This document shows positions 16,329-38,054 of a stretch of 42,598 nucleotides of DNA, piece after piece; positions within the stretch are counted from its first letter, which is position 1, and every line of letters starts with the position of its first letter. This stretch comes from Pseudomonadota bacterium (GTDB lineage Bacteria; Desulfobacterota; Binatia; UBA1149). The translations under genes were made by a program, and so were the position numbers. The notes beneath the pieces are model-generated. The model saw nothing but the letters and a program-made list of their open reading frames with translations, searched no databases and had not been told where the DNA came from. The DNA is taken from NCBI GenBank assembly GCA_014382245.1, contig JACNKC010000079.1, positions 1-42,598 of the forward strand, in the 5' to 3' direction.

Positions 16329-17189
16329 ATGGGGAGGGCAGCACAAGAGCAGGCCGTGGGCGTGGACGCCGGCGCTACCTTGCTCAAGCTCGTGCTGCGC
16401 GCGGCCGACGGCAGCGAGCAGCGGCACTTACTGCCCGGACGTGAAGTGGCCGCCGCCGTGGAGTTGGCGAGCGGGGCCGACCCGTCCCGCCTGGGTATCA
16501 CCGGCGGTGGCGCCGAGGGATTTACCCGTCGGTGGATCGAAGCTCACCCCCGGCAAGCCCGGTCGCCCGAAGCCCGGCGCTGCGAAGAGTTCGAGTCCTG
16601 GGCGGCAGGCGCCCGGTCGCTGATCGAGGCGGGCCGGATCGACAGCAGCTTTCCTTTTCTGCTCGCGTCGGTGGGTACCGGTACCTCGGTGTTGCTGGTC
16701 AACAGCGACAGCGTGCACCGGGTGGGAGGCACGGCGCTGGGAGGCGGCACCTTCCTCGGACTGGTGAGCGTGCTGGCCGGTGCCCGCGACTTTGCGGCCG
16801 CGGTTGCGCTCGCGGCCGCCGGCGATCGAAAGAACGTGGATCTCCTGGTCAAGGACGTTTACCGCGACAGCAAAGAGCTGCCGCTGCCCGGCGACTTGAA
16901 CGCTGCGTCCTTCGGCAAGATAACCTCTGATGGCCCCGAGCCCGTTGCGGCCGACCTCGCCAACTCGGCCGCCGCGCTGGTGGCCGAGAACATAGCCCTG
17001 CTTTGTCACGGCATGGCCGTTGCCGCGGGAGTGGACACGGTGGTGTACGGTGGCGCCACGCTGCGTGACAACCCGGCACTGGTGAGCGTGCTCACCGAGG
17101 TGTCGGCAGCCGTCGGCCTGCGAGCGGTGGTGCCGGCCAATGGCGAGTTCACCGGCGCACTGGGCGCGCTCGAACTGGCTGCAACGTAG
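16329..17189 (+). CDS. coaW: Type II pantothenate kinase-like protein
   Basis: 286 residues with an ASKHA (actin/hexokinase) fold. Phosphate-1 loop GVDAGATLLKLVL lies near residues 11-23; the middle holds SVGTGTSVLLV and the diagnostic GGTALGGGTFLGL; the C-terminus holds YGGATLRDNP and PANGEFTGALGAL. These match type II pantothenate kinases (eukaryotic PanK and staphylococcal CoaW), which phosphorylate pantothenate in the first step of CoA synthesis in the cytoplasm. The frame is open to 16260, but ATG 16329 starts just ahead of the first conserved strand. It is divergent from the FG-GAP lipoprotein. A related ASKHA sugar or amide kinase is possible, but the GGTALGGGT block makes PanK-II the best call. 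Confidence 0.85.
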   Translation: MGRAAQEQAVGVDAGATLLKLVLRAADGSEQRHLLPGREVAAAVELASGADPSRLGITGGGAEGFTRRWIEAHPRQARSPEARRCEEFESWAAGARSLIEAGRIDSSFPFLLASVGTGTSVLLVNSDSVHRVGGTALGGGTFLGLVSVLAGARDFAAAVALAAAGDRKNVDLLVKDVYRDSKELPLPGDLNAASFGKITSDGPEPVAADLANSAAALVAENIALLCHGMAVAAGVDTVVYGGATLRDNPALVSVLTEVSAAVGLRAVVPANGEFTGALGALELAAT

Positions 17190-17224
17190 TTCTGTGCCGA
17201 ACGCCCAAGGTCAACAAGGCGCAG

Positions 17225-18916
17225 TCAAGGATAATTCTTGTCAATGTGATCCTCGCCGTGGCACTCAAGATAGCAGGTCCCCGCGCGACTGCCGTTGTCC
17301 TGGAAAAACAAGTCCCCCTGGGAGTTGGGTAGTACCTCGTTCAGGTTGAAATTTACGAGGTGGGAGTTGTTGATCGTGCTGCTGGTGCCCGCCGCGACAC
17401 CGTGAGGGTCGTGGCAGGTAGCACAGGAAGTCGTTTCTTTTTCAATATGCTTGCTGTGTTCCGAGAATGATTCGTCACCGAGAATACTGCTGCGACTGTG
17501 GCACTTGTAGCAGAGCGAGTAAGTCTGAAAGTTTTCGCTTGAACCGTCGGTCAGGGTGTATTCACGTTCGAGCAGCTGTGGCCAGTTCGATCCGTGCGGG
17601 CCAGCGGGTCCGTTCCCCCCGGCTCCCGGGCCGTTGTCGTTATTGTGGCAGTCGCTGCAGTAGATCTGCGAACCCTCGTTCAGTGGGGCTATGAGGCTGG
17701 GCACGTCCGGGTTGCGGCCCGGCCCGGCCACGGGATGAAAGGAAGAAGCACTGGTATCAAACCTGGCTGACAGGTCGGGTTCGAAGGATTGTCTCTGGAT
17801 GACCGTGGTTGTGTCGTTCATGTGGCAGCGCAGGCACACCTCGTATTCGAAGCGTGCACCGTCGATCGACAGTCCCTGGATATCGACACCCGGGGCGCCT
17901 TCCAAGGCTCCGCTTGCGAAGGGAGCCGAGGCCGATGAGCCGTTGGCCGAGTGGGGATCGTGACAGTCCTGGCATTCAACGTGACGCGGCATCGTAACAG
18001 GGTCTTCGGTCGGATCGTGTACCCAGGCACTTGCGTCGACCGGGTGGGCTGAAAATTTCTGCAACGTGGTTGCTATGTCGACGGCGGTCACGCTGCCTGA
18101 GTGGCAGGCCAGGCAGCCGTCTTCCTCGGTAGAGCTTGTCAGCAGGCGCCGCGGTTGTGCCGCCGAGTGCGAGGCGTGACACCCGTAGCAGGCGTTCTCG
18201 GCAGTGGTTACTCCGTCGCTTACCGGCCACGGGTCGGGCCCGGCACCGTTCCAGGTCGCGCTGGAAGTCGCGTGGGCCGAGGCCTGCCAGCCGGTCAGCT
18301 GGTGGCAACTGGTACACAGTGCGGCATACGAATCGGCCATGACGAGGAAGTCAGGGTTGCCGGTTCCGTGTGGTTCGTGGCAGGCGGTACACTGCAGTTG
18401 ACCGCTGGCGTCAAGATGTACCGGCCCGGCCGACAGCAACGCGGGGTCAACCAGTTCCTGGTTACCGCCGGTTATAGCATCGGTGTACGAAAACGAGACG
18501 GGGTGGTCGTCCGAGAGATCGGTGGTTATGTCGGCTCTTCCCGAGACGGTTTCCTGGAGCCCTAGCGGCGGAGAGCCGAGTACAGTGCCCAACGCGATCG
18601 TGCCGTCGTGGCAACTCAGGCACAGCTTGGAGGCCCCCGTGGGTTGCCCGGGCGATGCCGCCAGGGTGGAGCTCGAGTAGGGTTCGTAGCTTAGAGAAGG
18701 CAGCAGGCGGTTCCACAAGGGAGTAGCGGGCGAGGCGTTGTGGGGAGTGTGGCAGAATATGCAGACCTCGTCTTCGCCCACCGCTGTCGGGCCGGGCCCG
18801 CTGATCGACAGGTCGTGTGGACTGTTCACGATGTCGGCCCTGGCCCCCGTGGTCAACAGGGCAGCCGCGGTCAGGATAAGCAACGGTAGCGGGCAAGCCT
18901 GGATAGTGTGTTTCAT
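17225..18916 (-). CDS. Large multiheme cytochrome c (11 CXXCH plus one CX3CH)
   Basis: 563 residues with a cleavable signal peptide (MKHTIQACPLPLLILT to about TGARAD). Heme sites in order: CIFCH, CLSCH, CTACH, CTSCH, CYGCH, CLACH, CQDCH, CLRCH, CSDCH, CYKCH, CATCH and a final expanded CYLECH. Many are followed by DPHG/EPHG/TPHN, typical of doubled-CXXCH (paired-heme) cytochromes. The N-terminal third resembles the whole of the tetraheme protein at 25069 (CHTPHN, PLW, ASKLCLSCHDG, DDHPVSF). It should sit in the periplasm or outside the cell as an electron carrier. ATG 18916 overlaps the preceding NHL gene's stop (ATGA). It is the last gene of the cluster; no clear terminator is visible in the 35 bases before the convergent coaW end. 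Confidence 0.9.
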   Translation of the reverse strand: MKHTIQACPLPLLILTAAALLTTGARADIVNSPHDLSISGPGPTAVGEDEVCIFCHTPHNASPATPLWNRLLPSLSYEPYSSSTLAASPGQPTGASKLCLSCHDGTIALGTVLGSPPLGLQETVSGRADITTDLSDDHPVSFSYTDAITGGNQELVDPALLSAGPVHLDASGQLQCTACHEPHGTGNPDFLVMADSYAALCTSCHQLTGWQASAHATSSATWNGAGPDPWPVSDGVTTAENACYGCHASHSAAQPRRLLTSSTEEDGCLACHSGSVTAVDIATTLQKFSAHPVDASAWVHDPTEDPVTMPRHVECQDCHDPHSANGSSASAPFASGALEGAPGVDIQGLSIDGARFEYEVCLRCHMNDTTTVIQRQSFEPDLSARFDTSASSFHPVAGPGRNPDVPSLIAPLNEGSQIYCSDCHNNDNGPGAGGNGPAGPHGSNWPQLLEREYTLTDGSSENFQTYSLCYKCHSRSSILGDESFSEHSKHIEKETTSCATCHDPHGVAAGTSSTINNSHLVNFNLNEVLPNSQGDLFFQDNGSRAGTCYLECHGEDHIDKNYP

Positions 18917-20001
18917 TGCCGGGCCCCCGTTGGATCGTTCCCGGCCCCGGGCGGCTGCGATGGGTCGAAGGCCTGTACTCGGGCGTTGAAAGAGTCGCTC
19001 ACCCACACCCTGTCGCCCGAGTCGACGAACAGGCCGGCCGGGAGGTTGAACTGCCCTGTTCCCGTTCCGGCGTGGCCGAAGGACAGCAACAGGGTGCCGT
19101 CGGGGTCGAATACCTGCACGTTGTCGAATCCGGCGTCGGCCACGTAGAGCCTGCCCGAGGAGTCGCTGCCTATTCCCTTGGGTCTCGCAAAGTCACCGGC
19201 CCCGTCGCCCGGACCGCCGAAGGACCCGAGCCAGTTCCCGTCACCGTCGAACAGTTGAACGCGGAAGTTGAGAGAGTCGGAAACGGCGATTCCACCGCCG
19301 GGAGTCGTGGCCACGTGGGTCGGCCCGTTGAACTGCCCGGGACCTGTTCCGCGCGTACCCACCCCACCGGCCAGTCGACCGTCAAGGTCGAAAAACTGCA
19401 CGCGGCAAGCGAGGGTGTCGACCACGTAGAGGGTCTGCTCGTCGGCCGACAATGCCAGCCCCGCTGGGCGTTCAAGTACGCCCTCACCGAGCTGCCCAGC
19501 CGGCCTCCCCAATGAATCGTAGACCAGGACCGTGCCCAACACGGAGTCGGCCACCCAGGTGGTTCCGTCGCCGGCCACGGCAACGCCCACCGGCGAGCGA
19601 AGTCGATCCGAAGCGGCCGCGCCCAGGCGCCTGTACACGGCCGCCTCGAGATCGAAGAAGTGTACGGTCGGTATGCCTGGATCGGCTACCGCCAGCAGGC
19701 CGCTCACCGAGCGGGCCACGGCGGCAGGCCTGACCATGTGGGAAGGCTCGCTTCCAAACAGCAGCTTGCTGATCCTCGAAGATATGCTCTTTTCGCTTGC
19801 CGAGATCGCTGCACCGCGTAGCTGCCCGGCCCACACCAGCCTGGCCGTCTCCGGTGGCGACGGCCATACCACGGCGGCCCCAGGATCGGGGGTCTGCAGT
19901 AGTGGAGCGGGTAAGCGCGGGCCGCAACCGGCGAGCCCGGGCAGCAGTGAAAGCAAGAGCAAGGCGGGCGGACAGAGCAACAGCGGGTAGCGTGCAGCCA
20001 T
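18913..20001 (-). CDS. NHL-repeat beta-propeller lipoprotein
   Basis: 362 residues. The lipoprotein signal ends LLPGLAGC, giving a lipidated Cys26. At least five NHL units are visible by their paired pattern of a (R)P-x-G-x-A/V turn and a D-x-x-x-x-R-V-Q-x-F strand, for example RPAGLALSADEQTLYVVDT, RVQFFDLDG, RVQLFDGDG, RPKGIGSDSSGRLYVAD and RVQAFDPS. They would make a six-bladed propeller used for binding or scaffolding, with no catalytic motif. ATG 20001 is preferred over the upstream frame because the signal peptide follows directly. The neighbouring barrel and multiheme genes make an outer-membrane scaffold role for an electron conduit plausible. Confidence 0.85.
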   Translation of the reverse strand: MAARYPLLLCPPALLLLSLLPGLAGCGPRLPAPLLQTPDPGAAVVWPSPPETARLVWAGQLRGAAISASEKSISSRISKLLFGSEPSHMVRPAAVARSVSGLLAVADPGIPTVHFFDLEAAVYRRLGAAASDRLRSPVGVAVAGDGTTWVADSVLGTVLVYDSLGRPAGQLGEGVLERPAGLALSADEQTLYVVDTLACRVQFFDLDGRLAGGVGTRGTGPGQFNGPTHVATTPGGGIAVSDSLNFRVQLFDGDGNWLGSFGGPGDGAGDFARPKGIGSDSSGRLYVADAGFDNVQVFDPDGTLLLSFGHAGTGTGQFNLPAGLFVDSGDRVWVSDSFNARVQAFDPSQPPGAGNDPTGARQ

Positions 20002-20005
20002 GGTT

Positions 20006-21988
20006 TCAGTATTTCCTCCTCGCGCGGATGAATACACGGTCGGCGGTTTCTTCGTCGCCGCGGTCGCGCGACAGGCGCGAAAGGTTGAGTCCTGCTTGGA
20101 CTTCGAGCTTGCGCCAGCGCCAGGTCACCTTGGCCCTTGTTCCGAACGAATCGCTGTCGTTGAGCCCCGGGGAGGGTCCCCCGCGCCAGCGTTCCTGCCG
20201 GTATTCCGCCTTGAGTTCCCCTCTTGTCCGCTGAGATAGCCGACCGCTGACCACAAGCGCGGCCGACAGGCGGCGAATTTTTTCGTCACTGTCGTTGTAG
20301 ACTTGCTCGGCGTGGCGGGTCGACAACCTCGACCGCCAGCGCGAACCCGGGGGCGTGTACACCGCCAGCGTTTGCGAAAGGGTATCCCAGGATACGAAGC
20401 TCGAATCATCGTGTGCTGCTTCAACGGCGGCCGACGACCAGGTACCCCGCCAGCGAATCCCGGTCGAGTATCGCTTGCGGTCTTCCAGTTCGGCGCCCGG
20501 GTCTCCGCGTTCAAGCGTTTGCCTGCTGTCACCAAAGTCTGTGTACAGCGATAAGTTCTTCCATAGCCTGAGGGTGGCGCCGGCACTGAGCGAGCGGGTG
20601 AGAATATCGCTCGTGGCAACCGGGCTGTAGTCATAGTCGACCAGTACGGTCGAGCCGTCGGGTATGTCGCCGGTGGCTATGCTGGTGATCTCGGTTATTC
20701 GGCCCCTTACCGTTACCAGGTAATCGTCGCCCTCGTCGTACACGGTGACCCCGGAGGAGTCGGTAATAAAAATAGCGCTTGTGTCCACGTTGGTGTGGCC
20801 CAGTTCCGCGGCGACGTCGTGGGAAAGAAAAAGACTTTCGTCGAACACCTGGATGGTGTCTGCGGTCGGGCGGTTGCGAGCCAGTTCGGCGTGCGGGGTG
20901 ACCCTCAGTGAGAGGTGGCCCCACCGGCCGAGACGCTTACTGTAATTCTCCGAAAGACGAAAACCCCAGGTGTCGTGTTTGCCGAATGACGCGTCTTCGA
21001 GGCGCGCGTAAAATTCCGGCTTGCTCGACAGGCTATCATAGAGCTTGTGGTCCAGTGACAGCGCGAGGTTCATGTTGTCGGTCGACTGGCTGCCCACGTC
21101 GTTGTGCTGGAAGTCCAGGCGGTAGCGCCCGTTCAGGTTCTGCCGATGCCGCCAGGAAAGACCCGCCGATACGCTGGCGTTGTTGCGCGTGGAGAGGTCG
21201 GACTGGCGGTTGAGCCGGACGTTGGTCCTCAGGGTCTGCGCCTCCCCGAAGCTGTTGTAGGCGGTGGCGGATAGGGACTGCCGGGACTCGTTGATGCCGC
21301 GTACGACACGGTCGGTGAGCTGGTAGTGAAGCTCTCCGTTTCGCGTTGTTCCCCTTTTCCATGGCAGGCGGAAACTGAACTCGTCGCCTCGTTCATTGAT
21401 GTCGGAACCCGATCCGTTGCCCCTGCGTTTGCGGTGAGTGTAGTTCATGAGCAGCGATACCGGTCGCGAACGCCAGCGGGCAGACAGAGCGTAGATTTCG
21501 CTGTCCAGCTCATAGGTTCGCGCGAAACTACGGTTCACCTCTACCCTTTCGACTTTTCCGTGCTGGGAGAATCCGTAGGCGTGTTCGTCGAGGAAACTGA
21601 GTCTCCAGTCTCCGCCGAGCAGCAGCCGGGCGCCGCGGCCGTAGTCGTCGTCGCCGCTGTTGCTGAGTCCCTCGATCGCCCTTAGTTTTATGCCGGCCTT
21701 CCAAGCCAGGAAGCGGGGGTGATAAGAATAACCGCGGGTGTCTACGCGCAGGATTTCTTCGAGAACCGCGTAACGGGATTCGAAAGAAGTGGCGGAACCC
21801 GGGCGCCGTCGTTCCTGGCCGCCGGCGTCGGCCACCAGCTCTACCCAGCCGCTCATGTCGGTCAGGGCGAAGGGCCTGATCGCGGCCGACGGATAGGGAC
21901 CAGTGGCGGCCGCGGCGTTGTCCGGCTGGACACCTGCCGCCAGGATGAGCGCGGTCGCGAGCGACAGCGAAAAATCCGGCGGCTTCAT
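20006..21988 (-). CDS. Large outer-membrane beta-barrel, probable porin of a cytochrome conduit
   Basis: 660 residues. Signal peptide MKPPDFSLSLATALIL to about NAAAATG; the mature chain is almost wholly alternating beta-strand pattern with charged turns (SLLMNYTHRKRR, NLNGRYRLDFQHND, HLSLRVTPHAEL, SLSAGATLRLWKNLSLYTDFGDSR), enough for 24 or more strands. It ends RARRKY, an aromatic terminus as BAM substrates have. ATG 21988 overlaps the stop of the pentaheme lipoprotein gene (ATGA). Size, barrel pattern and cytochrome neighbours fit the MtrB/OmbB role of a sheath around a heme wire through the outer membrane. I do not see direct MtrB sequence motifs such as an N-terminal CXXC, so it is an analogue by context. 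Confidence 0.75.
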   Translation of the reverse strand: MKPPDFSLSLATALILAAGVQPDNAAAATGPYPSAAIRPFALTDMSGWVELVADAGGQERRRPGSATSFESRYAVLEEILRVDTRGYSYHPRFLAWKAGIKLRAIEGLSNSGDDDYGRGARLLLGGDWRLSFLDEHAYGFSQHGKVERVEVNRSFARTYELDSEIYALSARWRSRPVSLLMNYTHRKRRGNGSGSDINERGDEFSFRLPWKRGTTRNGELHYQLTDRVVRGINESRQSLSATAYNSFGEAQTLRTNVRLNRQSDLSTRNNASVSAGLSWRHRQNLNGRYRLDFQHNDVGSQSTDNMNLALSLDHKLYDSLSSKPEFYARLEDASFGKHDTWGFRLSENYSKRLGRWGHLSLRVTPHAELARNRPTADTIQVFDESLFLSHDVAAELGHTNVDTSAIFITDSSGVTVYDEGDDYLVTVRGRITEITSIATGDIPDGSTVLVDYDYSPVATSDILTRSLSAGATLRLWKNLSLYTDFGDSRQTLERGDPGAELEDRKRYSTGIRWRGTWSSAAVEAAHDDSSFVSWDTLSQTLAVYTPPGSRWRSRLSTRHAEQVYNDSDEKIRRLSAALVVSGRLSQRTRGELKAEYRQERWRGGPSPGLNDSDSFGTRAKVTWRWRKLEVQAGLNLSRLSRDRGDEETADRVFIRARRKY

Positions 21989-22560
21989 TCGGTTTTCTCC
22001 CGCAGCAGCGCCGGCCCGTGGCCGGCGTGGGGGGCGTGGCAGTCCAGGCAGGCGTCCCCGTAGCGTACCAAGTGGCCGACCAAGGCGGGAAAGGTGTCGT
22101 TGTCGTGGCAGGCCGTGCACAGGGCTGGCGTTGTGTCGACGAGAAGGCTGGGTAAAGCCGAGCGGTGGGGGTCGTGGCAGGTTCGGCACTGGCTCGACGC
22201 GGCGGGCGCGTGACGGGAGCGACCGGGAAATTCGTCGGGATCGTGGCAGCTGTCACACAGTTCGCTGGTCGAAGAGACGAGCTCGTTGGCGTTCACCGAG
22301 TCGTGGCACGAAGTACAGAACCGGCGCGAATAGGGCCCGTGTATAGAACCCGTAAACACCGGTTGGGTGGGTGAAACCTCGGGGAGCGGGGCCAGCCGTG
22401 GAGGAGCTACGGCGTTAGCCAGCGGAGAGCCGGGAGGAGGCACCCCGTCAAAAAAGGTACTGAGAACCCCGTAGCGCTGTTCGGCACTACCGCAGGCCCC
22501 GGCACCTAGCAGCATCAACAGGCAGAGACCTGTTACCGCCCTGCTTCCGTTACTCGGCAT
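21985..22560 (-). CDS. Pentaheme cytochrome c lipoprotein
   Basis: 191 residues. Hydrophobic N-terminus ending GAGAC gives a probable lipidated Cys23. After a proline-rich linker come five heme sites: CTSCH, CDSCH, CRTCH, CTACH and CLDCH, several followed by DPHR or APHA. Distal histidines (RHAP, GHLVRYGDA, HAGHG) could complete bis-His ligation. It overlaps the upstream multiheme gene by 11 bases and the downstream barrel gene by 4 bases, so a stoichiometric complex is likely. With the barrel it could form the periplasm-facing heme wire. An outer-membrane surface position is equally possible from the lipobox alone. Confidence 0.88.
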   Translation of the reverse strand: MPSNGSRAVTGLCLLMLLGAGACGSAEQRYGVLSTFFDGVPPPGSPLANAVAPPRLAPLPEVSPTQPVFTGSIHGPYSRRFCTSCHDSVNANELVSSTSELCDSCHDPDEFPGRSRHAPAASSQCRTCHDPHRSALPSLLVDTTPALCTACHDNDTFPALVGHLVRYGDACLDCHAPHAGHGPALLREKTE

Positions 22561-23887
22561 CGCGCTTGTATTCTCGCAGGTTGTGGCAACCCGGTGAGCA
22601 GGCGCCGCCGTTTGCCGAAGGGATAAAGTTCAAGGGCATGTCCCACTTGCCGTAGGGCACGCTGTCGCTGATGTGGAAGGGGTTATTGCTGGCGTGGGTG
22701 GCGTGACACGCTCGGCAGGTGTGACCCCTCGGCTCTCGCCTGCTGTGCACAAAATGAAGGTTGCGGTCGGCATCGCGAAACAGGGTCGCGGTTTCGGTGG
22801 TCGGGGCATTGACCATACCGGGGTCGTGGCAGTTGAAACAGAGCCCGTAGTCTTCGATGTCAAACGGGGCGTAAAAGCGGTCGGGGTAGGTACCGGCCAG
22901 CAGGCTGAAGTTCTCGCTCCCGTGGGGCTGGTGGCAGCCGGTGCAGTTGCCTTCCTGCAGGGGACCGTGCCAGTACCGGTTGGCTTGCATCATCGCCCCG
23001 ATACCGGCCAGCGGGGTAGTGTGCCCGTCCTCGACTGCTTGCTGGTGACAGCCAAGACACAGGTCTAGTTGGGTGGCGAGCAGCAGGGAAGGCTGCGAGG
23101 ACGCGTGGGGAGAATGGCAGGAAGTGCAGCCCGGTGCGGGGCCGTTCACGCGGTGATCTACCGGCGAGTGTTCCCACGTGCTCGCGACTTCTTCGTGGCA
23201 GCGCACGCACAGGGCATCGCCGCTGTCGATCAAAAGGGGCTCGTGGTCGCCGGCGTGGGACGCGTGGCAGTCCGGGCAAGCGGCTTCATGGCGGTGCGAC
23301 TCGCTCGTGATGTCGGCTAACTTTTGCTCGTGGCACATGGCGCAGAGCTCGTCGCCATCGGCCTTGAGCAGGGCCCGGTGGCGGGATCGATGGGGCTCGT
23401 GGCAGGCGAGGCAGTTGCCCGATGCTACCGGCCCATGCCGGTGTTTGCCTGACAACAGCGTGCCCTGGTCGTGGCAGGAAGTACATAGTTCGCGCTCGTC
23501 ATTTCCCCTGAGGATAGCCGGTTGGTCGCCACCGTGGGGGTCGTGGCAACCGACACAGGTTTCTTCGAGCGCGCCGTGAACAAAAATTTCTTTTGAGCCG
23601 GCGGCGACCTGGTCTGCGTGGCAGTCCTGGCACAGGGCAGGCGATTGGTCGACGCTGAACTCGTGGGCGGTACCGTTCTGTAGGTGGCAGTCTTGGCAGC
23701 GGTTGCGCAGGTCATCGAAGTGAACGTGCTCCGTGGCTCGCTTGTCGGCGTGACAGCCTCCTATCGAGCAGTCGCTTCCCTCGAGCAGTCTTGGCGGTAG
23801 CACAGCCGCTTCTCCAGGCGAGGCGAGCATTATCGCAGCGAACGAGAGAAGGCGCAGGGCGGTCGTGAACACGGCACGCGCGGTCAT
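22550..23887 (-). CDS. Large multiheme cytochrome c (13 CXXCH plus CX4CH and CX3CH)
   Basis: About 445 residues with a signal peptide (MTARAVFTTALRLLSFA to about GEAA). Heme sites in order: an expanded CSIGGCH, then CQDCH, CQDCH, CVGCH, CTSCH, CLACH, CAMCH, CPDCH, CVRCH, CTSCH, CLGCH, CTGCH, CFNCH, CRACH and a final expanded CSPGCH. That is 13 canonical and two atypical sites, so up to 15 hemes. Regular spacing with DPHG/EPHR/SPHA after every second site marks the paired-heme class of secreted or periplasmic wires. An in-frame GTG at 23917 gives ten more N-terminal residues; ATG 23887 was chosen for the tighter signal peptide. It lies directly upstream of the pentaheme lipoprotein and barrel. 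Confidence 0.9.
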   Translation of the reverse strand: MTARAVFTTALRLLSFAAIMLASPGEAAVLPPRLLEGSDCSIGGCHADKRATEHVHFDDLRNRCQDCHLQNGTAHEFSVDQSPALCQDCHADQVAAGSKEIFVHGALEETCVGCHDPHGGDQPAILRGNDERELCTSCHDQGTLLSGKHRHGPVASGNCLACHEPHRSRHRALLKADGDELCAMCHEQKLADITSESHRHEAACPDCHASHAGDHEPLLIDSGDALCVRCHEEVASTWEHSPVDHRVNGPAPGCTSCHSPHASSQPSLLLATQLDLCLGCHQQAVEDGHTTPLAGIGAMMQANRYWHGPLQEGNCTGCHQPHGSENFSLLAGTYPDRFYAPFDIEDYGLCFNCHDPGMVNAPTTETATLFRDADRNLHFVHSRREPRGHTCRACHATHASNNPFHISDSVPYGKWDMPLNFIPSANGGACSPGCHNLREYKRDAE

Positions 23888-23934
23888 CCCTCCCCTGGCC
23901 GGCCTTGTACGGGTCACGTGAGTTTCTATCCCCT

Positions 23935-25041
23935 TCAGGATCCTCCGCCGTCAGGCAGCGGCAACAGGAATCCGTAAACGTTGATCTTGTTTCTTCCGTA
24001 CTGGCTGGCGACCAGCAGCAGGTATTGCAGCGAGTAACCGGGCGCGACCCGGTCGCTGAACAGGTCAACGTTTTCGTAGTCGATTTCAACCTGCGCGGGC
24101 AGGTTTAAATCCCCTGGGCCCGCTCCGGGGCCCCCAAATACAAGCAGCAGGCGGCCGTCCCGGTCGAACAGCTGCAGGTTCTCGAAAGCGGCATCGACAA
24201 CGTAGAGCTGGCCTTGCCTGTCGAGCGCTATTCCCTTGGGTCGAGCAAACTGTCCCGGGGATCGGCCGAGACTGCCAACGTGGTGCAGGTGGTTGCCCGA
24301 AGTGTCGAAAACAGAGATACGAAAATTTCCGGTGTCGCTCACGTAGACCTTTCTATCGAACAGCTCGACGTTGGTCGGCAGGAAGAGTTGACCCTTCCCA
24401 CTTCCTTTCGTCCCGAGGCGGCGGAGTTCTCTCCCGTCGTGGCGGTTGATCAGCACTACCTGCCCGTTGGCGATATCGGTCACGTAGAGGGTGTCGCCTG
24501 CTATGGCCACGTCCGACGGCGTCCAGGCTTCGGGGTCACCGAGGGCTCCCCGGTAGGTGTCGTCGGGTTCGTAGACCATCACCCGCCCCAGTACGGTGTC
24601 GGCCACGTAGCGCGTGCCGTCACCGGCAACCGCGATATTGATCGGCTTGGCCAGCTTGCCCGGGTGGCGGGCACCGAGCTGTCCAGCCTTCTGCTGGGCA
24701 AAATTGTAAGTGACCACGCTGTTAGAGCCGGTATCACATACGAACAAGCTGCCATTGGCGAGCGCGAGGCCGTAGGGCTTGGCGAAGACGGTGTCGGGCT
24801 GTTCCCCGAGGACGAACTTTCGAAATCCACCGCCGCCCGCGCCCATTTCTGTCGCCGACGACCACGAGGCCAGGTGCTGCAAGCGGGGCGTTGATGGGGG
24901 AGGCGGAAAGAACACGGCCGGTCCGCGCTCGGCCTGCGGGCCTTGCTGTGTCGAACAGGCGGCGCAGGCAAGGGCGAGCAGAAGCAGCAGGCCGGGCCCC
25001 CTCACGGGAGCCCGGCCTTTTTTGTAGGGGCGACGCGGCAT
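23935..25041 (-). CDS. NHL-repeat beta-propeller lipoprotein (second copy)
   Basis: 368 residues. A basic start, a short leucine run and LACAAC give a lipoprotein-like signal (Cys26 or Cys29). NHL blades follow: KPYGLALANGSLFVCDT, KPINIAVAGDGTRYVADT, TPSDVAIAGDTLYVTDI, LPTNVELFDRKVYVSDT and RPKGIALDRQGQLYVVD, each with a strand such as RVMVYEPDD or RISVFDTSG. It shares this layout and the phrase AVAGDGTxxVADxVLG with the NHL gene at 18913, so the two are paralogs flanking the cytochrome-barrel core. The C-terminus (SLQYLLLVASQYGRNKINVYG) differs. The start codon region contains a terminator-shaped inverted repeat read on the other strand. Likely a periplasmic or outer-membrane scaffold. Confidence 0.85.
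   Translation of the reverse strand: MPRRPYKKGRAPVRGPGLLLLLALACAACSTQQGPQAERGPAVFFPPPPSTPRLQHLASWSSATEMGAGGGGFRKFVLGEQPDTVFAKPYGLALANGSLFVCDTGSNSVVTYNFAQQKAGQLGARHPGKLAKPINIAVAGDGTRYVADTVLGRVMVYEPDDTYRGALGDPEAWTPSDVAIAGDTLYVTDIANGQVVLINRHDGRELRRLGTKGSGKGQLFLPTNVELFDRKVYVSDTGNFRISVFDTSGNHLHHVGSLGRSPGQFARPKGIALDRQGQLYVVDAAFENLQLFDRDGRLLLVFGGPGAGPGDLNLPAQVEIDYENVDLFSDRVAPGYSLQYLLLVASQYGRNKINVYGFLLPLPDGGGS
24989..25023 (+). terminator. Intrinsic-terminator-shaped hairpin, plus strand, inside the NHL gene start
   Basis: AGGCCGGGC (24989-24997) pairs perfectly with GCCCGGCCT (25010-25018), with a 12-nt loop, and the plus strand continues as a run of six T (25018-25023). This is the classic form of a rho-independent terminator for plus-strand transcription, yet the only gene here is on the minus strand, where the same bases encode KKGRAPVRGPG. 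It may stop antisense transcription or be coincidental. Confidence 0.45.
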
Positions 25042-25068
25042 GCTGTGGCTACGGGTGTCGCTCTCTCC

Positions 25069-25710
25069 TTACTTGCTGTGGCAGGTAAGGCAAAGCGCGC
25101 TACCCGCGTTGCTCACCCTCAGTAGTTGGGCATGCCCGTCCGCGTTGTGAACGTCGTGGCAGGAGGAGCACTCCATGGCGCTCGCGAACAACATGTCGTC
25201 GGCTATGGTCGAGCCCAGGCCGCTGCCGGTCGTAGCCGGGTCGTGCAGCCCTCCGTCGAGCGTGGCCAGCGCCGTGTCATAGGTGAACGAGATCGGGTGG
25301 TCGTCTGCCAGTTGACCACCGGTACCCACGGCGTCGTTGCCCGTCATGAAGATGGTGCCCGTCGTTCCACCGAAGCTGTCGAGCGCTACCGAACCGTCGT
25401 GACAGGAAAGGCAGAGCTTGGAGGCTCCACCGGGCTGGCCGACGTCGGTGGCGTCCAGGGTCGGGCTCGCGTAGGGCACGAACACCTGCGTGGTGAGTTC
25501 GTGATCCCACAAGGGTGCGTTTTCCACGGTGGTGTCGGAGTTGTGGGGAGTGTGGCAGACCTCGCAGATCTGGCCACCGCTCCAGCCGTCGCCCGAAAAG
25601 TCGTGGTTACTGCCTGCGATGGCAGCTACCGACTGCGAAGCCGGCAGGAGAGTTGCCACTAAGATAAGGGCCGGAACCATGGTCGCTATCCTTCTGAAGA
25701 TCGTGTACAT
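25069..25710 (-). CDS. Tetraheme cytochrome c
   Basis: 213 residues with a signal peptide (ATMVPALILVATLLP to about SVAAIAG). Four heme sites: CEVCHTPHN, CLSCHDG, CSSCHDVHN and a C-terminal CLTCH. The order of landmarks (NHDFSG, CHTPHN, PLWDHEL, GQPGGASKLCLSCHDG, DDHPISF, C-terminal CSSCH) matches the N-terminal third of the large cytochrome at 17225, so the latter may be this module extended by further heme pairs. ATG 25710 follows an AAAGGAGA box. It is the promoter-proximal gene of the conduit cluster, with a sigma-54-like element about 60 bases upstream. Role: small periplasmic electron shuttle, inferred. Confidence 0.9.
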   Translation of the reverse strand: MYTIFRRIATMVPALILVATLLPASQSVAAIAGSNHDFSGDGWSGGQICEVCHTPHNSDTTVENAPLWDHELTTQVFVPYASPTLDATDVGQPGGASKLCLSCHDGSVALDSFGGTTGTIFMTGNDAVGTGGQLADDHPISFTYDTALATLDGGLHDPATTGSGLGSTIADDMLFASAMECSSCHDVHNADGHAQLLRVSNAGSALCLTCHSK

Positions 25711-25768
25711 CGCGTGTCTCCTTTCCTGTTTCGCTGGACTTTTCTCTACCCGTTACAGTCTTACCTAA

Positions 25769-25784
25769 CGCAAATTCTGTGCCG
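25769..25784 (-). promoter_or_regulatory. Sigma-54-type -24/-12 promoter for the cytochrome conduit cluster
   Basis: On the minus strand the bases read CGGCACAGAATTTGCG. The invariant GG (25783-25782) and GC (25771-25770) are exactly ten bases apart, and the flanks match the TGGCAC-N5-TTGC consensus except at the first T. It would start transcription near 25758, about 48 bases before the ATG at 25710. Activation by an enhancer-binding protein is implied. Confidence 0.6.
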
Positions 25785-25820
25785 TTATCCAAGCGATATG
25801 CCCTGGCCTTATAGCTGGCA

Positions 25821-25840
25821 TCAGCCGAGGTTCCGGCTGA
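25821..25840. promoter_or_regulatory. Inverted repeat upstream of the -24/-12 element, possible activator site
   Basis: TCAGCCG (25821-25827) and CGGCTGA (25834-25840) form a perfect 7-bp inverted repeat with a 6-bp spacer. Its centre lies about 47 bp upstream of the -24 GG. Enhancer-binding proteins usually bind dimeric sites of this size, though more often 80-150 bp upstream. No T tract follows on either strand, so it is not an obvious terminator. Confidence 0.35.
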
Positions 25841-25989
25841 CAAAAACCAGGAAACAGCCAATAAAACCGGCGCTGTTTATTTGCTACGAGATATAACAAT
25901 ATATGTCTTCCGTCCCCGCGGGCAGCTCGCAGGCGCCGGCGATTGTATTACTGGTAGAAAGGATTTGCAGAGCTGAATTCCCGCGCGCA

Positions 25990-26011
25990 GAAAATTCCCG
26001 GAAGCGGGAAT
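25990..26011 (-). terminator. Intrinsic terminator after the nine-heme cytochrome gene
   Basis: On the minus strand ATTCCCG, loop CTTC, CGGGAAT form a perfect 7-bp stem (26011-25994), followed by TTTTC. It lies 27 bases after the stop codon of the gene ending at 26038. The T run is short, so efficiency may be moderate. Confidence 0.65.
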
Positions 26012-26037
26012 ACCTGGCCGGGTGGAGGGGGATAGGA

Positions 26038-27600
26038 TCACTCGCTTTTCTCGGCGCGGCGCAGCTTCAAATAGATGAGCAGGCCCAGCAAGGCCGTAAG
26101 AAGCGTTGTCCAGCCCAGTCCCAGGCGTCGTATTCTCAACTCGCCGGTGGAATCGACACGGGCCGATTCGAGCTCGGTAGCTGCCTGCAGGCCCGGCGCA
26201 ACTACCCCGTCGAAGGTAGCCCGGTCGAAGCCGTGCACCTGTGTCCTTGCCTGCCGCAGCGAATCTTCGAGGCTCACCAGCTGGAGTTCCATCGGCTCGA
26301 CGTCGACACCCATTTCGGCAAAGTGGTGGATGGACGCCTGGCCTCGTTTGAGCTCCCCGGATAAACCGCGGAGCGCTGCCAGGAAGTGCTCTGCCACCGG
26401 CTGGCAGTTGGGGTTGTCGGCGGCAAAGCGCGGGTGGCACGAAGCGCAGGGAGTGTCGTTGCCAGACAGCATGTGCTCTCCGGCGGGCTCGATCGCGTGG
26501 CTGCCGTGGCAGGTGGAGCACTCCGGCCAACCGTGCTCTTCGAAGGCCAAGCGGTGGGTACTCTCCTGGAACAGCTCCCGGTTGAGCGCGTGGCAATCTA
26601 CGCAGGCCTGTCCTATGCCGTCGCGGGTACCCACGGTCAACAGGTGTGAGCCGTGGCAGTCGTTGCAGGTAGCCACGCCGAGGTCTCCGCGTTCGAGCAA
26701 GGCCCGTCCGTGCACGCTGGTCGTGTACTGCTCCTGCTGCGAAGTCGGGTAGGGGCTTCCGTCGGCCAATTCGAAGCCAGACATGTGGTCGGCGTCGGAG
26801 TGGCAGGCTCCGCAGGTGTCAGGTACGTGGGCGGGGTTGACAGGCGAAGAAGGGCTTTTGGCGCCGCGTATGGTGTGGGAGCCGTGGCAGCTGCTGCACT
26901 CGGGTGCTCTTGAGTCGCCGCGGTCGAGAAGCAACTGCCCGTGAGTGCTCATTTTGTAGTCGGTCACTTGCCCGGTCGGGAGCTTGGAGCCCAGGTCGGC
27001 CATCGCCTGTGCATCGGAGTGGCAGCGCCCGCAGAAACCGGGAACCCAGCGCCGATCCGAAAGTCTTTTCTCCCTGTTTTCGGGCCATTGCTCGACGAAG
27101 TCGTGATCCATGAAGGCCGCGGGGTCACCACCGTGACAGGCCGCGCAGCCCAGGCCTGCCTGGAAGTGCTGGTCCTGCAGCACTAGCCCGAGTTCCATGT
27201 AGGGCAGCGCGTCGTGTGCCGCCGGATCCTTGGAAAGGCGCGTGACCGATTCGTGGTACTCCGGGTTGCCGTGGCACAGCGCGCAGTTGTCCGTGGCCAG
27301 GCTTTGCAGGCGTCCGGCGGGCAGCCGAGCCTCGAGAAGCGATGACAGGTGGACGCGTGACACGAGGGATTTGCTTTCCACTGCCGCCTCCAGCGAATCC
27401 AGCGTTTCGGCGGGCAGGCCGAGCAGGTATTCTCGCGCCGAAGGGTCGGCGGCTCCATCGAGCAGGTGGGCCAGCGCGGGCGGCAACGGTTCCGCGGCCT
27501 CACCGTGATTCAGTTGGGCGGGTTGCGAAGCCGTGGCGAGACCACCGCCCAGGGCCAGGGCCAGGGATACGGCGGCGCTGATAAACGTGCCCGGTCTCAC
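26038..27600 (-). CDS. Nine-heme membrane-anchored cytochrome c of a Rieske/cytochrome b complex
   Basis: 520 residues, GTG start overlapping the cytochrome b stop (GTGA). An N-terminal export signal (about 25 residues) is followed by nine heme sites: CALCH, CAACH, CGRCH, CSSCH, CGACH, CNDCH, CVDCH, CSTCH and CASCH, several followed by GSH. A helical region (LKRGQASIHHFAEMG, LRQARTQVHGF) then leads to one C-terminal transmembrane helix (TTLLTALLGLLIYLKL) and a basic tail. It replaces the usual cytochrome c1 or f as electron acceptor from the Rieske protein. Multiheme c subunits in such complexes are known from anammox bacteria and deltaproteobacterial relatives. A hairpin with a short T run ends the operon. 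Confidence 0.9.
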   Translation of the reverse strand: MRPGTFISAAVSLALALGGGLATASQPAQLNHGEAAEPLPPALAHLLDGAADPSAREYLLGLPAETLDSLEAAVESKSLVSRVHLSSLLEARLPAGRLQSLATDNCALCHGNPEYHESVTRLSKDPAAHDALPYMELGLVLQDQHFQAGLGCAACHGGDPAAFMDHDFVEQWPENREKRLSDRRWVPGFCGRCHSDAQAMADLGSKLPTGQVTDYKMSTHGQLLLDRGDSRAPECSSCHGSHTIRGAKSPSSPVNPAHVPDTCGACHSDADHMSGFELADGSPYPTSQQEQYTTSVHGRALLERGDLGVATCNDCHGSHLLTVGTRDGIGQACVDCHALNRELFQESTHRLAFEEHGWPECSTCHGSHAIEPAGEHMLSGNDTPCASCHPRFAADNPNCQPVAEHFLAALRGLSGELKRGQASIHHFAEMGVDVEPMELQLVSLEDSLRQARTQVHGFDRATFDGVVAPGLQAATELESARVDSTGELRIRRLGLGWTTLLTALLGLLIYLKLRRAEKSE

Positions 27601-28982
27601 GCGCCGGCGGTCTCCTCCCCCCGGGACTGGGCGCGATAAATCATCACCACGCCGGCGACCACGGGCAGCATGGCCACGAGGCCGGCGGCCAGGTACCCGA
27701 TTCCGGCCAGGCCGTGCAGCCCGGCGTGCAGCAGGGCGGCCCCGCTGAAAAGAAACCAGCGATGCTCGTACACGGTATAGCGTATCGCTATGATCGCTCC
27801 CCCCAGGCCCAGCTCCCACCACGCGCAGGTGCGCGCAACGGACGCCACCGACGCCGGCGCGTCCACGTCGTTACCGACAGCCCCGATGTCCCAGGCCTTG
27901 AGCGTCAGGTAGGAGATGAAGAGGATCGCCGCAAAGCCGAAGTCACTGAAGCCGGGAGAGGGCTGGTTCCTGCGCGCCTGTCGGTCCATCCACGGCACTG
28001 CCGCCCAGGCTCCCATGAGTACGCTCACCAGCAGCAGGCACAGCTGCGGTCCCTCGAGACCGAGCAGGTGGGGAGGAAACTCCTTGAGGAGTTGGTAGAT
28101 CCACAGGAAGTACCACTCGGGCTTGATGCCGGGGTAGGCCGGCGCGAGCGGGTTGGCCTTGCTGCCCAGCTCCCACTCCATGCCGGGAATATTGGGGCCG
28201 TAGGGTGCCACCGTGGAGAGGGCTACCAGCAGGAAGAGGCAGGCCAGCCACAGCAGCAGGTCACGGACCGCGAAGGACGGAAAAAACTTCATGCCGCGGG
28301 GCGCGTGGCATTCCCCCACCGGCGCGGCCATGCCCTGCCGTTGTATGAACAGCAGGTGTATACCCACGAGCGCGAAGCAAGCCAGCGGCAGGATTATGAC
28401 GTGCAGGGCAAAGAACCGGTAAAGGGTGTTGATGGTTACGTCGGGGCCGCCGCGCATGACCTCGAGCAACCAGTTACCCACCACCGGCACAGACTTGACC
28501 GAGTCGGTACCAACTACGGTGGCGAAGTACGACAGCTCGTTCCACGGCAGCAGGTACCCTGAAAAACCGAATCCCAGGGCCACCGCGAACAGAACGTAGC
28601 CGGTGACCCAGGTGAGTTCGCGCGGAGGTCGATAGGCCTTGAGCAGCATGGTGCTGAACATGTGGGCTACCAGGCAGATGATCATCAGGTGCGCGCTCCA
28701 GCAGTGGAACGACCGCACTAGCCAGCCGAACGGGACCTTGGTCATGATGTAGCGCAGGCTTTCCCAGGACGTGGCCTCGCCCGGCTGGTAGTACATGAGT
28801 AGCAGTACGCCGGTGACTATCTGCACCATGAAAAAGAACAGCGTCGCGCCACCCAGGAAGTACCAGGCCATGGAGTGCGCGCCTATGGGGACCTCCTTGT
28901 GACGCAGGAACTCTATCAGGGGGCTGACCTGGTAGCGTTCGTCCAGCCAGGAAAGCAGCGGGCTTTTCGTGTCGTTGCTCAC
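27597..28982 (-). CDS. Cytochrome b (b6-type, fused b6 and subunit IV, C-terminal extension)
   Basis: 461 residues, polytopic inner-membrane protein. Heme b ligands are H93 and H107 (SFHCWSAHLMIICLVAH) and H194 and H209 (ALHVIILPL to GIHLL). The 15-residue step of the second pair is the b6 type rather than mitochondrial b type (14). The quinol-oxidation motif PEWY is intact at 288-291, inside the subunit IV-like half. After the normal end the protein continues for about 100 residues with about three more helices and a HAGLHG motif, longer than standard b6 plus subunit IV. It oxidises quinol, sending one electron to the Rieske cluster and one across the membrane. ATG overlaps the Rieske stop (ATGA). 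Confidence 0.95.
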   Translation of the reverse strand: MSNDTKSPLLSWLDERYQVSPLIEFLRHKEVPIGAHSMAWYFLGGATLFFFMVQIVTGVLLLMYYQPGEATSWESLRYIMTKVPFGWLVRSFHCWSAHLMIICLVAHMFSTMLLKAYRPPRELTWVTGYVLFAVALGFGFSGYLLPWNELSYFATVVGTDSVKSVPVVGNWLLEVMRGGPDVTINTLYRFFALHVIILPLACFALVGIHLLFIQRQGMAAPVGECHAPRGMKFFPSFAVRDLLLWLACLFLLVALSTVAPYGPNIPGMEWELGSKANPLAPAYPGIKPEWYFLWIYQLLKEFPPHLLGLEGPQLCLLLVSVLMGAWAAVPWMDRQARRNQPSPGFSDFGFAAILFISYLTLKAWDIGAVGNDVDAPASVASVARTCAWWELGLGGAIIAIRYTVYEHRWFLFSGAALLHAGLHGLAGIGYLAAGLVAMLPVVAGVVMIYRAQSRGEETAGA

Positions 28983-29440
28983 GCCTGCTCCACGACGTTG
29001 ATCACCACCGAGCCGTCGTCTCGGCGTTCGCCGTAGAAGCGGGGTAGCGGTTTTGGCGGCGGCCCCGAGATGACGCCACCTTCAAGGTCGAACTTAGCGT
29101 TGTGACACGCGCACCAGATGAGAGAATCATCGGCGACGTACTGGACGGTACAACCTTCGTGCGTGCAGCGCGCACTGAGGGCGCGTATATCGCCCTCCGA
29201 GTCCTCTAGTACGAGTACCCGTTTGCCCACCACCGGCACGATGACGAAGCCGTCCTGTTCCAGCTTGCCGATTTCGCCGCGGGTGAGGTTTACTGGTCCG
29301 GTTGGGCCCGTCTCGGGCAGGGGCGTGAGGTAACGACCCACGGGGTAGAGCACCGATGCGAGCCAGCCCACGACTGCTGATCCGAGTATCCAGTCAAGAA
29401 AATCGCGGCGGGTGTTTCCCGAAGTCCGGGGTCTTGTCAC
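28979..29440 (-). CDS. Rieske [2Fe-2S] protein
   Basis: 153 residues from GTG 29440. The N-terminus has a twin-arginine pattern, TRRDFLDW, followed by one transmembrane helix (ILGSAVVGWLASVLYPVG), the usual Tat-dependent anchor. Cluster motifs are CTHEGC (C92, H94; C97 in the disulfide) and CACH (C110, C112, H113); C92, H94, C110 and H113 bind the cluster. A GPPPKPLP stretch follows, as is usual. The frame is also open to a GTG at 29509 (176 residues), but that adds a long, unconserved leader; neither start has a strong ribosome site. First gene of the three-gene Rieske, cytochrome b, nine-heme operon, with a sigma-70-like promoter at 29553-29580. Confidence 0.93.
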   Translation of the reverse strand: MTRPRTSGNTRRDFLDWILGSAVVGWLASVLYPVGRYLTPLPETGPTGPVNLTRGEIGKLEQDGFVIVPVVGKRVLVLEDSEGDIRALSARCTHEGCTVQYVADDSLIWCACHNAKFDLEGGVISGPPPKPLPRFYGERRDDGSVVINVVEQA

Positions 29441-29552
29441 ATCACTCTTCGGATCCGAACGGGGAGAAACCGGTATCGTCGTCAGGATAACCTGTCGACT
29501 CTTTCCCACCCCCGCCGGGTCAAGCCTCGCGTTCTCCTTTCTCCTGCTGCCA

Positions 29553-29580
29553 CTTGTAGCGTACTGCCGACCTCAGTCAA
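29553..29580 (-). promoter_or_regulatory. Sigma-70-like promoter for the Rieske/cytochrome b operon
   Basis: On the minus strand TTGACT (29580-29575) and TACAAG (29558-29553) are separated by 16 bp, five of six and four of six matches to consensus. The start point would be near 29547. Two purine-rich AGGAG-like boxes (29534-29545) follow without a nearby in-frame start, so the leader is untranslated or the gene start is mis-set. Confidence 0.45.
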
Positions 29581-29595
29581 AATGGATGGGATCCG

Positions 29596-29626
29596 GCGCT
29601 GCTCGCCGTTCGCTGACGAGCAGCGC
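29596..29626. terminator. Perfect 10-bp hairpin after the amine dehydrogenase operon
   Basis: GCGCTGCTCG (29596-29605) pairs perfectly with CGAGCAGCGC (29617-29626) around an 11-nt loop. It lies between the end of the mau operon and the promoter of the Rieske operon. There is no T tract on either strand, so it may be a rho-independent-like barrier of low efficiency or a 3'-end stabiliser. Confidence 0.45.
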
Positions 29627-29630
29627 TATG

Positions 29631-29696
29631 TTGCCGGCCAGTTACCGGCCAGTTACCGGCCAGTTACCGGTCAGTTGCCGGTCAGTGGCCGGCCAG
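29631..29696. repeat. Six tandem 11-bp repeats, consensus TTRCCGGYCAG
   Basis: Six head-to-tail units start at 29631, 29642, 29653, 29664, 29675 and 29686: TTGCCGGCCAG, TTACCGGCCAG (twice), TTACCGGTCAG, TTGCCGGTCAG and TGGCCGGCCAG. The last unit and a half lie inside the 3' end of the monoheme cytochrome c gene, the rest downstream. The 11-bp period is close to one helical turn, so each CCGG core faces a similar side of the DNA. Confidence 0.85.
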
Positions 29697-30098
29697 GAGG
29701 CGGCGCCTTGCCGCCAGCGGGTCGAGGTAGGGCTGGGCGCGCAGGCGCCCGATTTCGCCCGCCGTGTAGGGTGGGTCGGCCGTGGTGTCGCCAAAGCGCG
29801 ACAGCATCCAGTTGAGTACCGCGGCAAGCCGTTTGTCGTCCAGCGGCGAGTGGGCAGCGCCGGGCACGCGCCCGAGATACTCCCGTCCGCCCGGCAGCGC
29901 AAAGAGTCGGCCGGTGTCTGCAAGCGGGGGCACCGTCCGCGAGCCCTGGCCCCCGAGCAGGTGGCATGCCGCGCAGTTGAGCAGGTAGTCGTGTTGCGCC
30001 ATCTTCACGTCGCGCGCAGCCACGCCATCGGCCGCCAGGGCCTGAACTCCCGCGGCCGCAAAGCCGGTAACCAGCAGCGCGGCTGATAAAAGCCTCAC
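29682..30098 (-). CDS. Small monoheme cytochrome c of the mau cluster
   Basis: 138 residues, GTG start overlapping the mauA stop (GTGA), with a GGAGAA box upstream. The signal peptide (RLLSAALLVTGFAAAG to about ALAADG) is followed by one heme site CAACH in the order YLLNCAACHLLGGQG and a later methionine region (LNWMLSRF) that could supply the axial ligand. Class I cytochromes c of this size serve as electron acceptors in quinohemoprotein and TTQ systems lacking amicyanin, so this is the likely acceptor of the amine dehydrogenase. The frame is open far upstream through mauA, but that part is only a shadow. The C-terminus overlaps the 11-bp repeat array. Confidence 0.82.
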   Translation of the reverse strand: MRLLSAALLVTGFAAAGVQALAADGVAARDVKMAQHDYLLNCAACHLLGGQGSRTVPPLADTGRLFALPGGREYLGRVPGAAHSPLDDKRLAAVLNWMLSRFGDTTADPPYTAGEIGRLRAQPYLDPLAARRRLLAGH

Positions 30099-30670
30099 TT
30101 CTCCGGCTGTCCTTCTACCGCCAGTCCGATGATCATGGCCGCGGAGCAGTTGTAGACCTGCGACTCGGCGCCCGCGCACCAGTTGATGTCGTTGTTGCGG
30201 TAGGGGTGGTAGACCGGCCGTTCGCCCTCGTTGCGGTTGCAGAAGCAGCGCCCGCAGGGATTCCTGCCGCAGCAGTCGTTGTACCAGATGAGGTAGTCTT
30301 TCTTGTCCAGCGGGTTGCGGCAGGTGCCTATCCAGGTCACCGGCGACATTTCGGTGCCCGGCGGGCAGCTCGTGCTGCTGCCGCCACAACAACCGCAGAG
30401 AAATCCGTCGATGGCACAGTTGCGCCAGTAGTCGCAGTGGTTGGGGTCGCCCTCGGGGCCTTGGATATCTTCGGGCGGGGCGGCGGCGCGTGAGCCGTGG
30501 CTCTCGTCGGAGGCTTGTCCGCGGGCCACCGGCAACAGCGGCAACGCCGCGACCCCGGTCACGGTGCCCCCTGCTATCACGCGGCCCAGGCGGGCGAGAA
30601 AACCACGCCGCCCACTGCGCCGCGCGAGCGCGCGCGAGCTGTTCTCCATCCAGCGGTCCAACCTGCTCAT
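30095..30670 (-). CDS. mauA: Amine dehydrogenase small (TTQ) subunit, MauA-like
   Basis: 191 residues. A Tat-type leader (SGRRGFLARL) precedes a compact Cys-rich domain with 14 cysteines. The two tryptophans that become tryptophan tryptophylquinone are present as W113 and W164, exactly 51 apart as W57 and W108 are in Paracoccus methylamine dehydrogenase; D132 matches the catalytic Asp76 and D88 matches Asp32. The landmarks CDYWRNCAIDGFLCGCC and NDINWCAGA are typical. Two cysteines (C95, C139) exceed the classical twelve and could form a seventh disulfide. The enzyme oxidises primary amines to aldehydes and ammonia in the periplasm. The aromatic-amine homologue cannot be separated from methylamine dehydrogenase here. 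ATGA overlap with mauD. Confidence 0.93.
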   Translation of the reverse strand: MSRLDRWMENSSRALARRSGRRGFLARLGRVIAGGTVTGVAALPLLPVARGQASDESHGSRAAAPPEDIQGPEGDPNHCDYWRNCAIDGFLCGCCGGSSTSCPPGTEMSPVTWIGTCRNPLDKKDYLIWYNDCCGRNPCGRCFCNRNEGERPVYHPYRNNDINWCAGAESQVYNCSAAMIIGLAVEGQPEK

Positions 30671-31332: not shown

Positions 31333-31336
31333 GGCG

Positions 31337-33135: not shown

Positions 33136-33164
33136 AGCCTAGTTACGCGGCCGGCATGAGGCAA

Positions 33165-38038: not shown

Positions 38039-38054
38039 GGCTTGTGCCCCCTGC

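Follow-up and report, generated by a model that had tools for sequence, protein, structure and literature searches.

The electrical connection of extracellular cytochrome filaments to the cell has been described as poorly understood (PMC10553843), and the assembly and secretion of these wires as unresolved (PMC12307469). Closest to the locus considered here is Uet (undecaheme electron transfer, uetABCDEFGHIJ), reported from Candidatus Tenderia electrophaga and the Tenderiales, and also from Gallionella; the available part of its description names an extracellular tetraheme cytochrome, a peptidyl-prolyl isomerase, a barrel, three triheme cytochromes, NHL proteins and an undecaheme cytochrome with 11 or 12 CXXCH motifs (PMC10734462), and the gene tags are given elsewhere (PMC5371394). 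In syntrophic sulfate reducers, the Oet conduit (OetABI) has been described with OmcX/OmcS-like filaments, and the idea that a filament acts jointly with a conduit was published for that system (PMC10553843). Here, we analyse a seven-gene porin-cytochrome cassette in a stretch of 42,598 nucleotides (the window; contig JACNKC010000079.1, positions 1 to 42,598, of assembly GCA_014382245.1) from a Pseudomonadota bacterium that GTDB places in Desulfobacterota, Binatia, UBA1149. The focus is on its 12-heme cytochrome, J, which by sequence and predicted structure is a fusion of a filament-subunit domain with a second heme chain.

The seven genes lie on the minus strand and are transcribed from 25710 to 17225, encoding in this order a tetraheme cytochrome (t4), an NHL lipoprotein (NHL1), a 15-heme cytochrome (X15), a pentaheme lipoprotein (L5), an outer-membrane beta-barrel, a second NHL lipoprotein (NHL2) and J. 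The first of these, t4 (25069–25710), carries four CXXCH motifs and a signal peptide with no lipobox. Its sole matches among solved structures, both over the full length, are 9YUQ, a 'putative multiheme cytochrome c' of 16 chains (phmmer E 1.9e-23), and 7TFS, the OmcE filament of Geobacter sulfurreducens (phmmer E 2.9e-20, residues 17–213). Additional histidines, which are candidate axial ligands, are kept in t4 and J, with H36, H138 and H188 invariant and H56 nearly so. Because the full-length matches, the four heme sites and these extra histidines are all shared with 7TFS and 9YUQ, t4 is assigned on sequence grounds to the OmcE family, and may polymerise into an extracellular wire. Unlike that of the OmcE of Geobacter, however, the gene for the subunit here has a barrel gene among its neighbours, and a second copy of the subunit is fused to another heme chain.

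That second copy forms part of J (17225–18916, minus strand), which divides into an OmcE-like half (18296–18835) and a second heme chain (17225–18295). A t4 query within the genome finds J at 39% identity, residues 42–236 of the J open reading frame (ORF) match 9YUQ and 7TFS (E 2e-29 and 2e-27, respectively), and a profile of 85 J sequences matches OmcE with an E of 6.4e-47. In the AlphaFold model of J (mean pLDDT 88.7, pTM 0.87), residues 6–179 superpose on the OmcE subunit with a Z of 11.2 and 2.7 Å over 165 residues, the predicted fold of this N-terminal half being the one found in the OmcE filament, and a Foldseek search with the model returned OmcE (E 6.6e-07) as the only match under E 0.001. 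Aligned as a whole to MtrA, J gives a Z of 7.1 over 233 residues at 5.0 Å. The C-terminal half, on the other hand, aligns with X15 (hhalign probability 100, E 9.4e-41), and the two have landmarks in common, such as PHGS, YxLCF/YxCH and a terminal CX3CH. As read from sequence and model, J is thus a chimera, consisting of an OmcE-like filament-subunit half and a second, conduit-type heme chain homologous to X15. A literature search, which did not extend to the original Uet description, returned no report of an OmcE domain inside an undecaheme protein.

The heme motifs of J comprise 11 CXXCH and one CX3CH. The last motif has the form CxLxCH in 80 of 86 homologues, and because it is so widely kept the terminal CX3CH is probably a real twelfth heme site. 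A tree of N-terminal halves sets 46 J sequences apart from 55 tetrahemes in a single group (96% SH-aLRT), which suggests that the fusion was probably one old event and has been retained since. Further cytochromes occur near a complete J in three genomes (G006:C13:185719-186987, G008:C18:8895-10172 and G096:C1:9020-10285). These are X-type proteins of 9 to 13 hemes that match J positions 166–570 only, corresponding to the second chain without the OmcE domain, and in front of them lies an 18-heme protein, frequently with an NHL gene as well.

The gene calls confirm the seven genes, their order and the coordinates 17225–25710 that had been given in an original prediction made from the DNA letters alone, with start codons revised for the barrel (ATG 21988), NHL2 (ATG 20001) and J (ATG 18916). 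The genes are tightly packed, with all intergenic gaps at or below 28 bp; in transcription order the junctions are a 28-bp gap, a 17-bp gap, an 11-bp overlap, an ATGA overlap, a 4-bp gap and an ATGA overlap. The overlapping gene ends of the prediction are therefore found at three junctions, two of them as ATGA, and the other three are short gaps. All four heme proteins have Pfam paired-CXXCH cytochrome matches, and the predicted heme counts hold once two CX3CH motifs and one CX4CH motif are counted as well, whereas by CXXCH alone the 15-heme protein has 13 and the 12-heme protein 11. The labels 'tetraheme' and '12-heme' gave the heme numbers and missed the OmcE-type subunit and the OmcE-domain fusion, and 'bracketed' by NHL lipoproteins is only partly apt, since t4 precedes the first NHL gene and J comes after the second.

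The distribution of the cassette was followed through J, because the barrel is too divergent: it is only 16–22% identical within the class, and a back-translation scan of genome contigs with the barrel alone found nothing. A J-profile scan covered 84,980 species genomes, and the best 80 loci, in which J matched over most of its length at 40–52% identity, were analysed; as these were picked by similarity to J, the co-occurrence rates below describe this J family only. The 80 loci, and the cassette with its NHL, barrel and CXXCH neighbours for which the original prediction had suggested a synteny search, spread over at least 12 named phyla, mainly Planctomycetota, Pseudomonadota, Verrucomicrobiota, Bacteroidota and Nitrospirota. 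Neighbours were counted within 10 kb of J in the 48 flanked loci, which have at least 6 kb on each side of it. A barrel and an NHL gene were each present in 46 of the 48, two or more NHL genes in 41, an OmcE-like tetraheme in 43 and a pentaheme-lipoprotein-like gene in 40. An X15-like gene (scored as X13-like) occurred in 27 and was missing from 21, with J and the barrel persisting, and the constant core therefore consists of the tetraheme, NHL1, the barrel, NHL2 and J. In four flanked loci, J has no neighbouring cytochrome of at least six hemes, and the locus of Sedimenticola reads t4, t4, NHL, barrel, NHL and J, plus one triheme. In 51 of 65 loci, J begins before the second NHL gene has ended, the overlap mostly being exactly 4 bp, and from these sequences NHL2 and J appear to be usually translationally coupled.

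Closer to the window, the same parts make up the clusters around six barrel homologues of its order or class, five of these clusters encoding J. In a sample of 141 genomes from the class, the J profile finds a match at E 1e-60 in 16, the match being partial in a few. The seven-gene arrangement is not a chance one, as its order recurs in these relatives and in many phyla, and the predicted multi-cytochrome barrel conduit is borne out as a conserved set with the two NHL lipoproteins as constant members. Variants of the cassette were also seen. In L014 (G139:C317, 10893–17372), the sixth of the clusters just named, a pentaheme OmcE-like protein follows the barrel in place of J, with two more OmcE-like tetrahemes upstream. 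In the gammaproteobacterial loci L047 (9496–17967), L035 (6560–14337) and L049 (11816–19435), the cassette is followed by genes for 8-heme, 7-heme and triheme proteins, an NHL gene and an 18- to 24-heme cytochrome, possibly a second conduit module.

The barrel (20006–21988, minus strand) was modelled by AlphaFold from 70 homologues (mean pLDDT 93.4, pTM 0.79). The model has 28 strands, 17 long ones before and 11 after a small beta domain (20618–20854) that is inserted between strands 17 and 18, as seen from model secondary structure and conservation. By geometry, 28 strands would give a C-alpha radius of about 24–28 Å, compared with 23–26 Å for 26 strands. Strand parity in the model places the insert probably on the extracellular side. 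It contains four of the eight residues that are nearly invariant in the barrel family and its block conservation is among the highest, and because of this concentration the insert is probably a docking site. Over about 75 residues, the insert also resembles the NCBIfam phage tail-tube profile NF052337 (E 1.7e-11, below the cut-off; 19 of 70 homologues match), possibly through a common small beta fold. As the tail-tube match is limited to the insert and the remainder is the 28-strand barrel, we rejected a phage origin for the latter.

The original prediction had noted no MtrB motif in the barrel, and this is corroborated by profile searches, in which none of the 70 members matched an MtrB/PioB profile (NCBIfam, Pfam, E 1e-3); TIGR03509 has no match in the genome and is likewise silent in its 14 control genomes, and a sequence search of the PDB gave no match and was uninformative. 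Fold comparison puts MtrB (6r2q_B; Z 15.6, 416 residues, 10.3 Å; VIA alignment) joint first with the receptor Cir (Z 15.6, 342 residues, 8.4 Å). Other large barrels, among them siderophore receptors and LptD, also score in such searches, which could be taken to mean that cytochromes of the periplasm or cell surface, serving detoxification or some other respiration, adjoin a nutrient porin by chance. We consider this very improbable, given that the barrel matches no porin or receptor family and stays near J in nearly all flanked loci. A sugar or ion porin or receptor identity was rejected in the same way: the receptor fold hits are those of a generic large barrel, no porin profile matched any of the 70 homologues, and a pore of 28 predicted strands is wide, so that neither a pore too narrow for a heme protein nor a known porin family, the two outcomes named beforehand as speaking against a conduit, was found.

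A comparison with MtrCAB, MtoAB and PioAB can also be drawn for the cytochromes. These systems likewise combine a large barrel with multiheme cytochromes, and X15 (22550–23917, minus strand; possible alternative start ATG 23887), with 13 CXXCH, one CX4CH and one CX3CH, resembles MtrA: it scores 159.7 bits against the MtrA/DmsE decaheme family TIGR03508, under the cut-off of 192.2, and matches MtrA 6r2q_A with an E of 2.2e-13. Their barrels have 26 strands, in contrast to the 28 predicted here, and the cassette differs from them further in its two NHL lipoproteins, its OmcE domains and the lack of an MtrC-family protein over cut-off, the best cluster cytochrome reaching 24.5 bits against 209.3 for TIGR03507. 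Nevertheless, the locus could be an Mtr-like conduit with surface cytochromes and no filament, in which X15 would occupy the barrel like MtrA, J would act as a surface terminal oxidase or reductase like MtrC, and t4 would be a monomeric extracellular carrier. X15 is indeed the most MtrA/DmsE-like protein of the set, the fold comparison of the barrel has MtrB in its top two, and an X13-like gene accompanies J in more than half of the flanked loci. We hold this to be rather unlikely, since J and the barrel are retained where X15-like genes are missing, and since t4 and the N-terminal half of J match filament subunits specifically.

By gene composition, the cassette is instead a variant Uet-type system, a kind already known. 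Its tetraheme (UetA), barrel (UetC), two NHL proteins (UetH and UetI) and 11/12-CXXCH paired-CXXCH cytochrome (UetJ) have counterparts in the accessible Uet description, and the novelty of architecture that the original prediction implied falls away, as a set of tetraheme, barrel, two NHL proteins and undecaheme is already published there (PMC10734462). The gammaproteobacterial homologues L036, L047 and L049 have the same Uet-type core set. As far as the accessible description goes, Uet differs in having a peptidyl-prolyl isomerase, three trihemes and a TPR protein, none of which lies within 17225–29509, and the window cassette adds X15, L5 and a linked Rieske protein, cytochrome b and nonaheme cytochrome. 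Compared by description only, Oet also unites a barrel conduit with proposed filament cytochromes in one cassette; its filament candidates are of the OmcS, OmcX and Apc2a types, not OmcE, and the available portion of its description has no fusion of a filament subunit to a second chain (PMC10553843). PCC4, with its 4-, 5- and 10-heme proteins, was rejected as a parallel, as its published description includes an inner-membrane protein of five helices but no extracellular cytochrome (PMC5566968).

The unit to which the cassette belongs is larger than seven genes. Upstream on the minus strand lie genes for a nonaheme cytochrome with a C-terminal transmembrane helix (26038–27822; the ORF start is over-extended and the true start is probably near 27600), a cytochrome b of the bc/b6f type (27597–28982; Pfam Cytochrome_B E 8e-50) and a Rieske iron-sulfur protein (28979–29509; Pfam Rieske E 1.6e-13). 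A genome of the same genus (G002, 192-kb contig, locus L117) has an empty site here: window 16521–17182 (L117 1–662, 96%) is joined within 30 bp to window 29674–35396 (L117 692–6422, 91%). The missing 12.5-kb island (17183–29673) holds the Rieske, cytochrome b and nonaheme genes together with the seven cassette genes; because these ten genes are all absent together, they were gained or lost here as one unit, and the seven-gene extent originally proposed describes the cassette itself, with the unit reaching upstream to the Rieske gene. A contig break was rejected as the cause, since the G002 contig continues across the junction; neither J nor the nonaheme protein was found in the rest of that genome. 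The two island ends have no repeats in common. The link of cytochrome b to the conduit is not general, because relatives that are 70% identical in two genomes of the same order sit on contigs other than those of J.

The remaining members of the cassette are lipoproteins. NHL1 (23935–25041, minus strand; Pfam NHL E 2e-16) is of the six-bladed-propeller type, with a C-terminal extension, 'YLLLVASQYGxNKxNVYGF', and the alignment sets it apart from NHL2 (18913–20001, minus strand; Pfam NHL E 3.5e-21), the propeller lipoprotein whose gene is ATGA-coupled to J. L5 (21985–22560, minus strand) has five CXXCH, supported by Pfam and the family alignment, and an N-terminal motif, RYxVLSxFFDGVP. The NHL and OmcE-like genes are constant companions, and J has a filament-subunit domain; given also that the secretion of cytochrome wires is unsolved (PMC12307469), the barrel and NHL lipoproteins might mainly be a secretion or assembly apparatus for an OmcE-like wire, with J as its secreted tip or cap subunit. 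This appears improbable to us, as the C-terminal half of J is related to the conduit-type cytochrome X15, and a Rieske, cytochrome b and nonaheme set travelling with the cassette would be superfluous for a pure secretion channel.

We therefore favour, as the probable though by no means certain reading, a Uet-type cassette for extracellular electron transfer whose products form a conduit in the outer membrane as well as a cytochrome wire of the OmcE type. Quinol would be oxidised by the Rieske and cytochrome b pair, and the membrane-anchored nonaheme cytochrome and X15/L5 would relay the electrons across the periplasm. J, inside or on the 28-strand barrel, would carry them across the outer membrane, and a tetraheme wire stacked on its N-terminal half would lead them outward. 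J would thereby be the joint, its C-terminal half serving as the conduit-type chain related to X15 and its N-terminal half as the filament-subunit copy on which the tetrahemes stack, and the NHL propellers, as presumed outer-membrane lipoproteins, would probably dock or assemble J and the filament. Electrons could equally well flow the opposite way, into the cell, as has been proposed for Uet. J appears to be the best candidate for the membrane crossing, because four flanked loci encode no other cytochrome of at least six hemes and Sedimenticola has only a triheme besides. More tentatively, and with the balance of doubt slightly against it, J may be a covalent adapter between nanowire and conduit in at least a dozen phyla, with its inner half passing through the 28-strand barrel and its outer half forming the first OmcE-type subunit of the wire.

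Several points weigh against this reading. OmcE homology does not by itself entail polymerisation, and X15 or L5, not J, could occupy the barrel. The similarity score between J and X15 derives in part from the repeated CXXCH spacing itself. The first 45 residues of J, with its first heme site, are of low confidence (pLDDT about 40–60) in a model from which AlphaFold omits the hemes, and the proposed open end of J does not show in it; this would be consistent with an interface left unoccupied in the monomer, but the prediction may also simply have failed here.

Beyond the island, the window contains further genes. A methylamine/amine dehydrogenase cluster (29682–33135, minus strand) lies directly upstream, with mauB (Pfam E 7.7e-34), mauE (E 1.5e-26), a mauD-like thioredoxin fold, a monoheme cytochrome c and, as read from the sequence, a mauA-like light chain at about 30095–30669. 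A functional tie of these genes to the conduit is doubted, as they occur without the island in G002 and their contiguity may be chance. At the right end of the island, just after the monoheme cytochrome c gene, a CCGGTAACTGG-like unit is repeated in tandem four to five times (29620–29690). A second stretch (35396–41220), which includes an 850-aa Lamin Tail Domain protein, is missing at the same position in G002 and is represented there by L117 6422–6936.

The cassette is noteworthy within a known kind, for the nanowire identity suggested for its tetraheme, the chimeric J, a barrel predicted to have 28 strands and carrying a conserved insert, and its wide distribution. It suggests that OmcE-type wires together with conduits occur far beyond Geobacter, in Planctomycetota, Verrucomicrobiota, Bacteroidota, Nitrospirota, Pseudomonadota and others. 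J, which combines a filament-subunit domain with a second heme chain and is nearly always encoded beside a very wide barrel, offers a testable candidate for the junction between wire and cell.

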